DNA of 34,520 bases from Candidatus Magasanikiibacteriota bacterium. Its GTDB lineage: Bacteria; Patescibacteriota; Patescibacteriia; Magasanikbacterales; GWA2-37-8. The stretch spans positions 1-34,520 of the forward strand of contig CALRGC010000009.1 in NCBI GenBank assembly GCA_943357105.1, written 5' to 3'. The translations under genes were made by a program, and so were the position numbers. Each line of letters begins with the position of its first letter. The first letter of the stretch is position 1. Under the pieces are notes generated by a model. The model was not told where the DNA came from. It saw nothing but the letters and a program-made list of their open reading frames with translations, and did no database searches. This document shows positions 4,395-21,575 of this stretch, piece after piece.

Positions 4395-4518
4395 AAAAAT
4401 AAAGAAAAAGGCGCAAATAGTGACTTTTTCGCTTTCCTCGGCCGCGAGGCCTCAGGGAATCGCCTGCGGGCTCATAACCCGCTCAAAAGTAACTATTTGC
4501 GCCTTTTTCTTTATTTTT
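4395..4518. repeat. Large inverted repeat, family B copy 1
   Basis: Perfect 27-base arms at 4395-4421 and 4492-4518 enclose a 70-base core. The core holds a further ACTTTT/AAAAGT pairing and two GC-rich hairpins (CCTCG-GCCG-CGAGG and GCGGG-CTCATAA-CCCGC). It lies just after the stop of the SPFH gene and before the hrcA promoter. The T-rich outer arm could terminate the SPFH transcript. Its core segment TCGCCTGCGGGCTCATAAC resembles one in the element at 33241-33411. Confidence 0.85.
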
Positions 4519-7919: not shown

Positions 7920-8095
7920 AAAAAATAAAAATATCTCATAATTTTTACCACATAAAAGTGAGCCCCTAATTGGCGTAAGTAAATTTGAGTGGTGCCCCAC
8001 AGGGCAACGGCTCTACCCTTAGAGCCGTAACGAAAATTTATAGCCAATTATGCGAACTTTTATCAGGTAAAAATTATGAGATATTTTTATTTTTT
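7920..8095. repeat. Branched long inverted repeat, family A copy 1
   Basis: Perfect 30-base arms at 7920-7949 and 8066-8095 enclose nested pairings (ATAAAAGT/ACTTTTAT, TAATTGGC/GCCAATTA, TAAATTT/AAATTTA) and two terminal hairpins (TGCCC-CACA-GGGCA and ACGGCTCTA-CCCT-TAGAGCCGT). It sits between the convergent VKOR and GIY-YIG genes, and its right arm contains the GIY-YIG stop codon. The core is almost identical to 21387-21575. It probably terminates transcription in both directions, but its size and branching go well beyond a simple terminator. Confidence 0.93.
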
Positions 8096-13100: not shown

Positions 13101-13868
13101 TTATTTTTTTAGAAAAGCATCGTAACCGCCTTTTTCAATTTTTTTCACCAGATCTTTGCCGCCGCTTTTCACAATCTTACCTTTGGACATCACATGCACT
13201 TTTTTTGGCGACAAGAGTGCAATTAATTTTGGATTGTGGCTGACTACTATCAGTGCCATCTTTTGTTTTTTGTGTATAGCGACTAATTCACGAGCGACAA
13301 TTTTGAGCGCATCAATATCCAGACCCGAATCGATTTCATCCAAAAAAGCAATTGTTGGCTGAAGCATCGCCATCTGTAACACTTCGGATTTTTTCTTTTC
13401 ACCACCGGAAAATCCTTCATTCACGGAGCGGGAAATAAATATCGGATCAATTTTTAATCGACCCATCTCTTCTTTCATCGCTTTGGAAAAATCCATTGGC
13501 GATATTGCAACCGCTTTTTTATCACGTGCCATTGCCACCGTATTGCGCGCCGTGCGCAAAAAATTTCCATAAGAAACTCCAGCCACTACTTGCGGATGTT
13601 GGAAACCCAAAAATAGTCCGGCCTGAGCGCGTTCATCTGGAGACATTTTGAGAATATTTTTTTTGTCGAGCGTCACAATGCCGCCATCGACATCATATCT
13701 GGGGTGACCCATGAGTACCGAAAGCAGAGTGGATTTTCCCGAACCATTTTGTCCCATTATGACATGCACTTCGCCTGAAGACACCTCTAAAAACACGCCA
13801 TTTAAAATTTTAATGCCGTCAATTGAAGCTTGGAGATTTTTAATTTGCAAGGTGGTTTTTTTGAACAT
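13101..13868 (-). CDS. sufC: SUF system ATPase SufC
   Basis: ABC-type ATPase that drives the shape change of SufB-SufD during cluster assembly. 255 residues: Walker A GQNGSGKST at 39-47, the Q-loop in FLGFQHPQVVAGVS, signature FSGGEKKK, Walker B IAFLDEIDSGLDIDAL and the switch His in VVSHNPK. The ATG at 13868 lies inside the end of trhO (29-base overlap), so the suf genes are read from the trhO transcript and coupled to its translation. No promoter is visible immediately upstream of sufC. Confidence 0.97.
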   Translation of the reverse strand: MFKKTTLQIKNLQASIDGIKILNGVFLEVSSGEVHVIMGQNGSGKSTLLSVLMGHPRYDVDGGIVTLDKKNILKMSPDERAQAGLFLGFQHPQVVAGVSYGNFLRTARNTVAMARDKKAVAISPMDFSKAMKEEMGRLKIDPIFISRSVNEGFSGGEKKKSEVLQMAMLQPTIAFLDEIDSGLDIDALKIVARELVAIHKKQKMALIVVSHNPKLIALLSPKKVHVMSKGKIVKSGGKDLVKKIEKGGYDAFLKK

Positions 13869-14811
13869 GGTATTTTTTGATTATACTCTCTATTTTATAG
13901 TAAAAACGCTCGAAAGTCAAAGCAACTGGCCCAAGTTTTTCTTTTATTTTACAAACTATACCGCAATACCCTTCCTCAGAAACTTCACATTCATCGCAAC
14001 AGATAAAATGACGCTTACCGCGACAGTGCAGATAGCTACAATCCAAATATTTTTCCGCCGACTTCTGACAGAGCCAACATTTACCGACCACTTCATGCTT
14101 GGGATCAGTCAAATTAAAACCCATGGTGACGCGACCATCAAAAACATAAAGCGTACCTTTGAAATCTTCATTAGGAAATTTTTCCATATAGGTGACGATA
14201 CCGCCGTAGAGCTGATAGACATCACTAAAACCATTGTTCACCAAAAATCCGGAAGCCTTTTCACAACGCACACCGCCGGTGCAGACTGTGACAATAGTTT
14301 TATCTTTCAAACTTTTGATGCTGGGCAAAATTCCGGCCAGATCACGAAAATTTTTCAGCGGCGGTAAAATTGAACCGGCAAAATGACCAACTTCAAACTC
14401 ATAATCATTGCGCATGTCGATAATATAAAATTCGCGGCCGCCATGAATCCATTGATGTAATTCTTCAGCTTGAAGATATTTACCGGTGGTCGTGCGCGGG
14501 TCGATGTCTTTTTCACCCAGATGCGAACTCACAATTTCATTGCGCACTTTTATGGATAATCGTGGGAAAGCATCGCTGGTGCCAGCGCTTAATTTAAAAT
14601 GAATATCGGCAAAACGAGCGTCTGATTTAAGCGCTTCAATATATTTGGCAATATTTTCTTTGGTACCTTCAAAAGTGCCGTTGACGCCCTCGGTAGCAAT
14701 AATCAGACGACCCTTGAGGCCAAGCTGTTGGCAGAGGGCACGCTGAGAATTCATCAGAGCCTCCGGATCAGCTATCTGAATGTATTTATAAAATAAGACA
14801 ATTTCGTACAT
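13840..14811 (-). CDS. trhO: tRNA uridine(34) hydroxylase TrhO (rhodanese-domain, YceA/UPF0176 family)
   Basis: 323 residues. The N-terminal acylphosphatase-like part (MYEIVLFYKYIQIADPEAL, GRLIIATEGVNGTFEGT) leads into a rhodanese domain with the loop C177-TGGVRC183-EK, and then a Cys-rich C-terminal segment (CWLCQ, CSYLHC, FICCDEC, GYCGIVC) that probably binds metal. The family hydroxylates U34 of certain tRNAs to give 5-hydroxyuridine. Its last 29 bases overlap the start of sufC, which places a tRNA-modification enzyme at the head of the iron-sulfur operon. A weak -10 (TAATAT) lies close to the ATG. Confidence 0.94.
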   Translation of the reverse strand: MYEIVLFYKYIQIADPEALMNSQRALCQQLGLKGRLIIATEGVNGTFEGTKENIAKYIEALKSDARFADIHFKLSAGTSDAFPRLSIKVRNEIVSSHLGEKDIDPRTTTGKYLQAEELHQWIHGGREFYIIDMRNDYEFEVGHFAGSILPPLKNFRDLAGILPSIKSLKDKTIVTVCTGGVRCEKASGFLVNNGFSDVYQLYGGIVTYMEKFPNEDFKGTLYVFDGRVTMGFNLTDPKHEVVGKCWLCQKSAEKYLDCSYLHCRGKRHFICCDECEVSEEGYCGIVCKIKEKLGPVALTFERFYYKIESIIKKYHVQKNHLAN

Positions 14812-14864: not shown

Positions 14865-14865
14865 G

Positions 14866-14938
14866 AAAACAAAAAACCGTTCGCCTGCTTTATCTCTAAA
14901 ATTTAGAAATAAAGCAGATTTGACGAACGGTTGTTTGC
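14866..14938 (-). terminator. Two-level hairpin after the 162-residue gene, family C copy 1
   Basis: Outer stem AACCGTTCG/CGAACGGTT, inner stem CTGCTTTAT (14885-14893) with ATAAAGCAG (14909-14917), and a loop centred on TCTAAAATTTAGA. On the minus strand the stem is followed by TTTTGTTTT, so it should terminate transcription of the upstream GC-rich gene. The inner loop is nearly the same as at 15626-15690 while the stems differ. Confidence 0.82.
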
Positions 14939-14988
14939 CCTAACTGCGCCCTTTACCAGGGCGGACCACGAATGAACATCCTTCCTCC

Positions 14989-15477
14989 TCATTTGGTGGT
15001 GGGTTCCGCGGGTGGAACCTTGGTGAAACGGAGCCATTTTTCTTCCCAATCAACGCCATTGGCCTGGAGGACCCTGGCGATGGTTGGGCCAAGCTCTTCG
15101 ACCTGACCTTCCACAAACACCTTGGCAACTTCTTCGGGAATGTTGGTACCGAAAAGAGCTACCAGGATGATTTCCGTTGACAGGGCGCAACGACCACTCA
15201 GACCTTCCATGCCGACGGCCATCATCTGCAAGTCCGACACAGCCTCACTGGCAAACCAGTTGGCCGCATGGTCCATGATGAAGATGTCGTGGACACCCAT
15301 GCCTTCAAAGGCCAGACCCATTCCGAACCTCTCTGCCTTGCGAAAGGCACGAGAGATGATGGTCGGGGTGTCGCCGATCATCTGGCCATGGTGCCTGGCG
15401 CAAAAGAAAATAACTGCCGGGACTGCATACACAGCGACCTCCAAAGAAATCACCTTTGCTTTTGGCAAACCCTCCAT
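14989..15477 (-). CDS. Hypothetical protein, GC-rich gene, no family recognised
   Basis: 162 residues from the ATG at 15477 (MEGLPKAKVISLEVAVYAVPAVIFF). Moderately hydrophobic N-terminus, a Met/Gly-rich middle (GMGLAFEGMGVHDIFIMDHAANWF, MMAVGMEGLSGRC) and a helical acidic C-terminus (IPEEVAKVFVEGQVEELGPTIARVL) ending Pro-rich. No signal peptide or motif that I can assign. Its base composition is clearly richer in G and C than the flanking genes, which suggests acquisition. It has its own strong promoter (15577-15605), a 90-base leader with an inverted repeat, and a dedicated terminator hairpin about 50 bases after the stop. Confidence 0.72.
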   Translation of the reverse strand: MEGLPKAKVISLEVAVYAVPAVIFFCARHHGQMIGDTPTIISRAFRKAERFGMGLAFEGMGVHDIFIMDHAANWFASEAVSDLQMMAVGMEGLSGRCALSTEIILVALFGTNIPEEVAKVFVEGQVEELGPTIARVLQANGVDWEEKWLRFTKVPPAEPTTK

Positions 15478-15500
15478 CGGTGTTTCTCGGTTAAGTTGGA

Positions 15501-15556
15501 GTTACGAAGGGGAATATTCATCTAAACCAATTTAGAAAAATATTTCCTTTCGTAAC
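15501..15556. repeat. 18-base inverted repeat in the leader of the 162-residue gene
   Basis: GTTACGAAGGGGAATATT (15501-15518) and AATATTTCCTTTCGTAAC (15539-15556) pair fully if two G-T pairs are allowed on the plus strand. On the minus-strand mRNA the same two positions become A-C mismatches. It may be a regulatory leader or the remnant of an element end. Confidence 0.6.
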
Positions 15557-15576
15557 TATTTAAAGAACAATGAAAA

Positions 15577-15605
15577 ATAATATCATGAATAATTACTTTT
15601 GTCAA
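15577..15605 (-). promoter_or_regulatory. Strong promoter of the 162-residue gene
   Basis: Minus strand TTGACA (15600-15605), 17-base spacer, TATTAT (15577-15582) with an extended TGA. It would give a leader of about 93 bases. Confidence 0.82.
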
Positions 15606-15625
15606 TGCTTGATTTGTAATAATAA

Positions 15626-15690
15626 AAAATCACGCGCCCTATTTTATCTCCAAAATATTTAGAAATAAAATAGGTCAGCGCATGATTTTT
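15626..15690 (-). terminator. Two-level hairpin after the 148-residue gene, family C copy 2
   Basis: Outer arms AAAAATCACGCGC and GCGCATGATTTTT (one mismatch), inner stem CCTATTTTAT (15638-15647) with ATAAAATAGG (15665-15674), and an inner loop like that of copy 1 (TTTATCTC ... TTAGAAATAAA). A T-run follows on the minus strand. It begins about 62 bases after the stop of the 148-residue gene. Confidence 0.82.
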
Positions 15691-15751
15691 GTTTCACACC
15701 CCTCCCTACCCGCCACTATTTGGCGGTCCAGTGGAAATTTTCATGATCTCC

Positions 15752-16198
15752 TCACTTGCCAGGCCGCTTGGCATTACAGCGGCGACAGTGAATGAAATTC
15801 GGCGCATTCCTGGAGAAGCATGTGCCTTCTCCCTGAATCAACGCGTAGCAGGTCCACGGAGCCGACGACCACCTGGCATCCCAGAATTCACCCAGATCCA
15901 TGGCGGGCTGAGTCGGTGGAACCGCCGGCCTGGTCGCGAAGACGCGCGGTTCGATCTGACCCTTCTTCGGAACCTGGGCCGCACGAGCACGCACCCGCTC
16001 TTCCTGAGCGCGGACGATCTGATCGATGCGCTCCTGAGCGAGCTTCTGCCGAATGTGTTTGCGTTGGCCCTTCGAGAGACCAGACTTGGTCTTCCTCGTG
16101 CGGTACCACCGCCTTTCCTTCTCGGGTTTGATCGGAGCATACCAACCCTTGGATTGAAGGATCTGCTTGCGGAACTCAAAACGAGCTGAAGTTGACAT
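15752..16198 (-). CDS. Hypothetical basic protein with a RanBP2-like zinc ribbon at the C-terminus
   Basis: 148 residues from the ATG at 16198 (MSTSARFEFRKQIL), which has GAGGG five to nine bases upstream; an in-frame GTG at 16243 has no such site. The N-terminal two thirds is a very basic, Gln/Arg-rich helical segment (RTRKTKSGLSKGQRKHIRQKLAQERIDQ by parts, then RAQEERVRARAAQ). The C-terminus reads W-T-C, nine residues, C-FSR-N-APNFIH-C-RR-C. This has the C-x3-N-x6-C-x2-C half of a RanBP2-type zinc finger with a longer first loop. It may bind RNA or protein. Very GC-rich (40 of 60 bases at 15961-16020), unlike the neighbours. Confidence 0.75.
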   Translation of the reverse strand: MSTSARFEFRKQILQSKGWYAPIKPEKERRWYRTRKTKSGLSKGQRKHIRQKLAQERIDQIVRAQEERVRARAAQVPKKGQIEPRVFATRPAVPPTQPAMDLGEFWDARWSSAPWTCYALIQGEGTCFSRNAPNFIHCRRCNAKRPGK

Positions 16199-16273
16199 GA
16201 CACCCTCACACTGCGCGTGAATTGCGCCAGTCAAAACTACCAAATCTCTCTCTGTAAGTCAAATTATTTACAA

Positions 16274-16316: not shown

Positions 16317-16715
16317 TTACACCGCCTTCTCATCCGCCTGATGCAAACCAAAGATATTTCCATCGGTATCTTTGAAGTATCCTTGCCAAGCCATTCCCGC
16401 TATCGCCATCTTGGGCAAAGCAACTGTGCCACCGGCCGACAAAATCTTTTCCGCGTACGCGTCAAAATTATCTACCACCACCGTACAGACATAGCCGCTA
16501 ACACAAGCACCATCCTCTGGCGGATTTCCTTTGCGACGGGTCAAACCACCGTTGATACCTCCGGCTTCATCTTTGCCACCAGTCATCACCATCCAATATT
16601 CAAACTGACCGCCTTCCCACTTTTTTATCTCCCAACCAAAAACTGTGGTGTAGAATTCGGCGGTTTTTTCCGGCTGACTGGAATGTATTTCAAAATGCGC
16701 GACACGATTGGACAT
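16317..16715 (-). CDS. VOC-family (glyoxalase/dioxygenase fold) protein
   Basis: 132 residues, the length of a single VOC module made of two beta-alpha-beta-beta-beta repeats. It starts VAHFEIHSSQPEKTAEFYTTVFGWEIKKW and has the second-half pattern VVDNFDAYAEKILSAGGTVALPK, with GYFKDTDGNIFGLHQ at the end. The His in HFEIH and Glu or His near the C-terminus are candidate metal ligands. Substrate unknown; members include glyoxalases and antibiotic-binding proteins. It starts five bases after the stop of the 19-codon basic peptide gene and shares its promoter. Confidence 0.92.
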   Translation of the reverse strand: MSNRVAHFEIHSSQPEKTAEFYTTVFGWEIKKWEGGQFEYWMVMTGGKDEAGGINGGLTRRKGNPPEDGACVSGYVCTVVVDNFDAYAEKILSAGGTVALPKMAIAGMAWQGYFKDTDGNIFGLHQADEKAV

Positions 16716-20980: not shown

Positions 20981-21406
20981 ATGCAAATAATTACCAAAAC
21001 CACAGAAGAAACAACTGAATTTGGAAAAAATTTAGCCGCTCAATTAAATGGTGGCGATATTTTATTACTCGAAGGCGAACTCGGTGCCGGTAAAACCACA
21101 CTGGTGAAAGGACTGGCCGCTGGACTAAACATCAAATACGAAATCACCAGTCCAACCTTCACTCTGATGAATACTTATCCGGTAGACTTGGAAAAAATAA
21201 AAAATTTGGTACATATTGATACCTATCGTCTCAAAGATGAGGAAGAATTGATTGAAATTGGCGTGGAAGATTATCTAGGCAAGCCAGACACATTGTGCAT
21301 CGTGGAATGGCCGGAGAAAATCGCCAAATTATTAAATGACAAAAAAACTACTATCGTAACAATCGAACACTTAGAAAATAATCAGAGGAAAATAAATAAA
21401 AAATAA
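20981..21406 (+). CDS. tsaE: tRNA threonylcarbamoyladenosine biosynthesis ATPase TsaE
   Basis: ATPase that works with TsaB and TsaD in making t6A37 on ANN-decoding tRNAs. 141 residues from the ATG at 20981 (MQIITKTTEETTEFGKNLAA). Walker A is GELGAGKTT at about 32-40, followed by ITSPTFTLMNTY (switch), LVHIDTYRL and CIVEWPEKI with the conserved Trp. A longer upstream frame is rejected because it crosses the gatC promoter. The last 20 bases of the gene, encoding RKINKK and the stop, belong to the left arm of the inverted repeat at 21387-21575. Confidence 0.95.
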   Translation: MQIITKTTEETTEFGKNLAAQLNGGDILLLEGELGAGKTTLVKGLAAGLNIKYEITSPTFTLMNTYPVDLEKIKNLVHIDTYRLKDEEELIEIGVEDYLGKPDTLCIVEWPEKIAKLLNDKKTTIVTIEHLENNQRKINKK

Positions 21407-21575
21407 TTTCAGAATTTTTACCGCATAAAAGTGAGCCCCTAATTGGCGTCAGTAAATTTGAGTGGTGCCACGTAGTGGCAACGGCTCTACCCTTAGAGCC
21501 GTAACGAAAATTTATAGCCAATTATGCGAACTTTTATCAGGTAAAAATTCTGAAATTATTTTTTATTTATTTTCC
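21387..21575. repeat. Branched long inverted repeat, family A copy 2
   Basis: Perfect 36-base arms at 21387-21422 and 21540-21575 surround a core nearly identical to that at 7950-8065: the same nested stems and the ACGGCTCTA-CCCT-TAGAGCCGT hairpin, with the second hairpin changed to TGCCAC-GTA-GTGGCA. The outer arms differ from copy 1 yet stay self-complementary. The arms carry the final codons of tsaE on one side and of rarA on the other. Core orientation is the same in both copies relative to the plus strand. Confidence 0.94.

Follow-up and report, generated by a model that had tools for sequence, protein, structure and literature searches.

GC-rich single-gene units ending in a common hairpin module in Magasanikbacteria: a candidate two-cassette array beside trhO

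The interval between trhO and a VOC-family gene in a Magasanikbacteria genome raises the question of what two adjacent GC-rich genes, each closed by a similar hairpin, represent, and whether they were gained as separate packages. The host genome (G000; Patescibacteria) comprises 0.93 Mb on 34 contigs and is 98.8% complete, with about 250 kb of it covered here as separate stretches. The window, the whole stretch of 34,520 nucleotides that was analysed, is contig C9. The island is bounded by trhO (13840-14811, minus strand) on one flank and by the VOC-family gene (16317-16715, minus strand) on the other. Between them, gene2 (15752-16198, minus strand), a GC-rich ORF of 148 aa, comes first in the order of transcription, followed by gene1 (14989-15477, minus strand), a GC-rich ORF of 162 aa of no recognised family. 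Local GC content in 500-bp windows peaks at 55-58% against approximately 42% in the surrounding region, and GC3 reaches 63% in gene1 and 68% in gene2 versus 40% in 20 neighbouring native genes, confirming the description in the first-pass annotation of two genes in the same direction with GC above their neighbours. Across the cassette set, codons ending in A are mostly avoided, with ATA, TTA, ACA and GTA nearly absent.

Database comparison gives few clues to the two products. The C-terminus of gene2 carries a zinc-ribbon-like motif (W-x-C...C...C-x2-C), with nothing above threshold in Pfam, PHROG or NCBIfam. The search for gene1 across 86 genomes of the order matched one other genome, where the GC-rich DNA is truncated by the contig end; its single remote homologue, at 30% identity, belongs to another family of the same order (G083). 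A single-sequence structural model of gene1 reached a pLDDT of 39, and a sequence search of the PDB returned no match of value. A viral or plasmid source was considered and rejected, since gene1 is absent from the viral contigs, phages and plasmids searched and a strict hairpin pattern is absent from the viral contigs.

The two hairpins belong to one family. Within the limits set by the covariance model, hairpin Ca (14865-14936, minus strand) lies 3' of gene1 and hairpin Cb (15618-15691, minus strand) 3' of gene2, at 52 and 60 nt from the respective stop codons, so the earlier placing of a hairpin 50-60 bases past each stop holds. Compared with dinucleotide shuffles, their folding gives z values of -9.7 and -8.5. 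Cb consists of an outer stem, a one-sided bulge, an inner stem with a conserved AT-rich core and a T-tract, and is terminator-like; the island hairpins terminate in TTTTTTATT or TTTTTTGTT. An alignment of 50 sites defines an outer stem of about 12 bp whose sequence varies, an unpaired spacer (CA or CAA) between the stems on the 5' side only, a GAGGATA-like bulge on the 3' side in some genomes only, and an inner stem with the conserved core TTTRTTTCYAAA...TTTRGARAYARA. The structure is supported by covariation, with two-sided changes in all 29 of 29 pairs and 94.5% of cells able to pair, falling to about 50% or less in slid controls. As in an intrinsic terminator, a stable stem leads into a T-tract, and the structure lies on the sense strand 3' of a gene.

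The covariance model found matches in 44 of the 114 genomes searched, yielding a set of 80 distinct hairpins from about 30 genomes, all of the same order, with 77 having both flanks usable. In the host genome, further copies lie behind GC-rich genes on contigs C1 (two), C15, C2 and C21, as the first-pass annotation had proposed to look for. The gene-plus-hairpin unit recurs at least six times here and at least 80 times across the order, some arrays being spaced at 500-750 bp. Across the 77 sites, mean GC is 54% in the 300 bp upstream of the hairpin and 40% over the same distance downstream, the upstream side being higher in 72 (p = 2e-13), whereas 470 other terminator-like hairpins from the same loci exhibit no contrast (40.4 versus 40.1%). 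The family hairpins are therefore not the ordinary terminators of native genes, a reading under which the cassette idea would have lapsed. In a phylum-wide draw of 380 genomes, matches were confined to this order except for three weak ones, and a strict DNA pattern scanned against all species genomes matched only two Magasanikbacteria MAGs, both of this genus.

Several structures were recorded alongside this set. At L009 (G000:C15, 3746-4815), a GC-rich gene of 301 aa, 2OG-Fe(II) oxygenase-like by eye and lacking an NCBIfam match, ends in a two-stem bulged hairpin that has no T-tract and was missed by the covariance model. L200 (G000:C2, 1322-4905) is a GC-rich island of about 4 kb with long ORFs at 64-66% GC, two of which begin with the identical MGYPVPGSNVMFK and then diverge. 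Elsewhere in the window, positions 7920-8095 and 21387-21575 hold two copies, about 90% alike, of an element of about 180 bp with inverted ends of 40-46 nt, which may be MITE-like or another family of structured intergenic sites, and positions 4395-4518 hold a near-perfect 34-nt inverted repeat with arms 56 nt apart.

The hairpin forms part of a larger 3' module. In the sense direction, each island gene is followed by a Shine-Dalgarno sequence, a mini-ORF, a GC stem-loop with a G-rich tail and the 70-nt hairpin. The mini-ORF after gene2 (15706-15744, minus strand) encodes MKISTGPPNSGG before its stop codon, with the Shine-Dalgarno GAGGAG just 5', and carries a TGPP variant of the arrest motif; the one after gene1 (14953-14979, minus strand) encodes MFIRGPPW before its stop codon and is preceded by GAGGAGGAAGG. 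By a strict test, a mini-ORF with R[AG]PP occurs within 150 nt before the hairpin at 13 of 80 sites, compared with 0-1 in control windows and 0.3 in shuffles; a looser count, adding TGPP variants and one doubtful case, gives 16 of 80. Such mini-ORFs, which span some 7-12 codons between the main ORF and the hairpin, mark a minority of sites, mostly in the present genus. Their peptide sequence is conserved: variation falls mostly at third codon positions, and the gene1 mini-ORF differs from its G003 counterpart over MFIRGPP by five synonymous and zero non-synonymous codons. Arrest peptides of the RAPP type include ApdA, ApcA and ApdP (PMC10951233, PMC12992588), and in experiments RAPP and RGPP prove the most versatile of the arrest motifs and the readiest to bring arrest about (PMC12992588). 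The mini-ORFs here are predicted to stall ribosomes. The module is also common to unrelated genes, that of gene1 being 86% identical over 88 nt to the module of an unrelated gene in another family (G078). Across all sites, the G-rich segment in the 35 nt before the hairpin tends to complement the 5' arm of its own inner stem (mean 4.75 versus 4.48, sd 0.10, in site-swapped controls), and an attenuator-like alternative pairing between the two is suggestive only.

At the 5' end, a unit typically has a promoter and a leader of its own. Upstream of gene2, a promoter-like site (16234-16262, minus strand) combines a -35 box TTGACT (16257-16262) and a -10 box TAGTTT (16234-16239) with a 17-nt spacer; upstream of gene1, the corresponding site (15577-15605, minus strand) has TTGACA (15600-15605) and TATTAT (15577-15582) at the same 17-nt spacing. 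Sigma70-type promoters with this spacing occur in many units, and 30% of leaders versus 6% of shuffles attain a promoter score of at least 10 out of 12. A same-strand terminator precedes 37% of units versus 16% of native genes (p = 4e-4). Leaders, too, are common to otherwise unrelated genes: the gene2 leader is 85% identical over 83 nt, up to the start codon, to that of a G001 unit (L075) without protein similarity, and two units of different genera (L053 and L117), again without protein similarity, have in common a 106-nt structured leader (GGAAGATTCCTTCGAAG...) at 73%, which has no Rfam match. The gene1 leader (15501-15570, minus strand) contains a boxA-like TTGTTCTTTAAA (15559-15570), which is only a weak lead, and after it the inverted repeat GTTACGAAAGGAAATATT / AATATTCCCCTTCGTAAC (15539-15556 with 15501-15518). 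The boxA-like GYTCTTT occurs in 10 of 74 leaders versus 2.6 in shuffles; a boxA antitermination leader was demoted to a lead because a search of the host genome's rRNA leader turned up no copy of the heptamer. GTTCTTT (boxA-like) followed by a long stem-loop was also seen in the leaders of more GC-rich genes (L204, 16851-17084; L199, right of 15150; L200, right of 4905; L208, right of 1470).

The cargo is diverse. The domains identified include DapD, a PurM-like AIR synthase, purine nucleoside phosphorylase (PNP), NUDIX, cytidine deaminase and an OPT transporter; most other cassette proteins tested had no family match, and PHROG matched none of 10. Housekeeping genes flank the units, among them trhO, suf genes, ftsH and rpmE. 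Such varied cargo under a single 3' module speaks for cassettes and against a gene family. These enzymes also bear on the suggestion that the GC-rich stretches are structured non-coding RNAs with incidental ORFs, which we regard as barely plausible. The high GC of these stretches within an AT-rich genome, the structure of their leaders and ends, and a few sites without a clear ORF would suit it, but recognisable enzymes are encoded, protein sequence is conserved between orthologues (51% over 105 aa for those of C15), and neither the hairpin nor the leaders match Rfam.

Comparison between related genomes reveals filled and empty sites. On the upstream side of rpmE, G003 has an insert of about 830 bp comprising promoter, gene and hairpin that is absent in G001 and G002, and an insert of this type was not seen at the rpmE flanks of G000 and G004. 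A unit lies before ftsH in G003 but not in G000, G001 or G002, and at L070 a G004 unit stands directly behind a native terminator, a position that is empty in G001 and G002. Short repeats, TTGACTTT and TTTTTnTTT, occur at the junctions; with about 20% DNA divergence between the genomes compared, the unit end points are approximate. At the trhO locus itself, the hairpin is kept in G000, G003 and G004 while the adjoining gene differs, being gene1 in G000 and a gene of 182-183 aa in G003 and G004; at another locus, G003 has a gene1-like unit closed by this hairpin, of which the contig covers only the final part. Comparing the trhO-VOC interval among relatives, as had been proposed, accordingly gives a divided answer. 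The gene next to trhO differs, G003 and G004 not carrying gene1 in that place, but G003 keeps a gene2 homologue, with 31-32% identity over 101 aa, at its trhO locus. This homologue and the units C1a, C1b and C15 keep the same positions in congeners, with about 30-50% protein identity and GC3 still at 49-80%. They are older residents, an old and vertically retained part of the set, so not all units are recently mobile. The cassette idea of the first-pass annotation is supported by the repetition of the unit and by the presence or absence of whole units between congeners, with part of the set staying at fixed loci.

The fixed loci give some weight to a plainer account, namely that these are ordinary lateral or orphan genes, old or independently acquired, behind which one successful terminator design has spread by gene conversion without any mobile unit. 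A stem with a T-tract is, after all, a normal intrinsic terminator, and GC falls in some G001 units as amelioration predicts; prolonged residence together with rapid evolution and loss might account for some of what is seen. As a full explanation it is nevertheless improbable, since termination needs neither a conserved apical core nor a bulge, the hairpin family is nearly absent behind native genes, orthologous loci lack whole units, and one 3' module serves unrelated genes in two families.

A further matter is how units might move. The first-pass annotation had likened the island to integron gene cassettes, while noting that attC core sequences do not appear. Set against attC anatomy (PMC2727003), the hairpins have the folded layout of integron cassette sites, with two stems, an unpaired spacer and one-sided bulges; the boxes RYYYAAC...GTTRRRY occur at 0 of 80 sites, as that remark anticipated. 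The only tyrosine recombinase found in the host genome is XerC/D-like, scoring 75 bits against TIGR02249 (integron integrase; cut-off 265), and lies beside ddl, away from every site found, which disappoints the expectation of family hairpins next to such a gene. Membership among integron gene cassettes was rejected on both counts, the boxes and the integrase, leaving the comparison as a likeness. G003, 88% complete and with many sites, gave no match for the tyrosine recombinase family, and there are genomes that have Xer and no sites.

An integron-like system with a new type of site would make the hairpin the folded single-strand site of a resident Xer-like or other recombinase, with site-specific insertion and excision. 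Two stems with a one-sided unpaired spacer resemble a folded attC, and the constant orientation of the hairpin behind each gene, the arrays at 500-750 bp spacing and the presence or absence of units one by one are what such a system would produce. It is unlikely nonetheless, given the missing boxes, the poor correspondence between Xer genes and sites, a conserved apex and variable base that reverse the attC pattern, and a T-tract and transcriptional orientation for which termination alone accounts. Only tentatively can it be entertained that Magasanikbacteria own a cassette system without an integron integrase, in which the bulged hairpin, partly with an arrest mini-ORF, would be both terminator and single-strand attachment site, drawing on a pool of GC-rich metabolic and orphan genes.

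Movement through RNA, with a reverse transcriptase copying promoter-to-terminator transcripts and inserting them, was weighed as well. Reverse transcriptases are present in G000, G001, G002, G004 and G020, but none was found in the site-bearing G003, G005, G023 and G024, for which reason the enzyme was rejected as the mover; moreover, the inserts carry their own -35 and -10 boxes, which transcripts would lack, making this route very improbable. One reverse transcriptase gene (G000:C19:16398-17006) is possibly part of a diversity-generating retroelement. No Y1 transposase was found in the g1 genomes searched. As no integrase-like gene, reverse transcriptase or Y1 transposase tracks the sites, entry by DNA uptake plus recombination at short repeats is favoured, with moderate confidence.

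The explanation we prefer, at a probability of roughly 60%, is that the island consists of two insulated single-gene cassettes in an array, with a common transcription-ending 3' module. Each cassette would be a compact transcription unit, running from a sigma70-type promoter through a leader, a GC-rich ORF and sometimes an arrest mini-ORF to a GC stem-loop with a G-rich tail, the bulged two-stem hairpin and the T-tract. The hairpin would act as the intrinsic terminator and mRNA 3' end. That it belongs to the unit is shown by its association with GC-rich genes, its covariation, the 3' modules common to unrelated genes, and the filled and empty sites. A ribosome starting on the mini-ORF would presumably stall at R[AG]PP, a few tens of nucleotides before the hairpin; parked there, it could keep the 3' end terminating and exonuclease-resistant, insulating the unit from its neighbours. 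Units would enter gaps between transcription units, most likely when DNA taken up by the cell recombines at short repeats, for instance T-tracts or TTGAC boxes, with the common 3' module as a putative recurring crossover target.

The literature searched gives no clear picture of how Patescibacteria, whose genomes measure about 1 Mb, gain and try out single genes, and no account of these cassettes was found in it. An insulated package marked by a 3' hairpin makes it possible to catalogue the genes open to exchange across an entire order, DapD-like and PurM-like enzymes among them, and a RAPP/RGPP mini-ORF at the 3' end of a transcript would be a novel setting for programmed ribosome arrest. The evidence points to GC-rich, hairpin-ended single-gene packages as an undescribed way of gene trading in Magasanikbacteria.

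Comparison with known systems places the units more precisely. REP/RAYT elements are likewise dispersed, imperfect intergenic hairpins, but the present hairpins are few in copy, tied to GC-rich genes and unaccompanied by a Y1 transposase in the g1 genomes. What the mini-ORFs share with RAPP arrest peptides is a small ORF that carries R[AG]PP close to its C-terminal end and is conserved at the protein level; they differ in being only about 7-12 codons long and in lying 3' of the main gene before a terminator, whereas the known type lies upstream of a localisation gene. Phage morons are autonomous single genes with their own promoter and terminator, known from prophages. The units resemble them as compact promoter-gene-terminator units of deviant composition between transcription units, but sit among chromosomal housekeeping genes and have a 3' structure conserved family-wide. 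Integron cassettes and CALINs (attC clusters without an integrase) offer a gene with a folded 3' site, one orientation, short arrays, varied cargo and an unpaired inter-stem spacer, all of which recur here. Unlike them, the units have neither RYYYAAC/GTTRRRY nor an integron integrase, conserve the apex and vary the base where attC does the opposite, and possess their own promoter, a T-tract after the hairpin and, in some cases, arrest mini-ORFs. Because the units lack a defining feature of integron cassettes and one of morons, they are filed under neither, and we rate them as a probable mobile kind of single-gene cassette with a novel 3' module.
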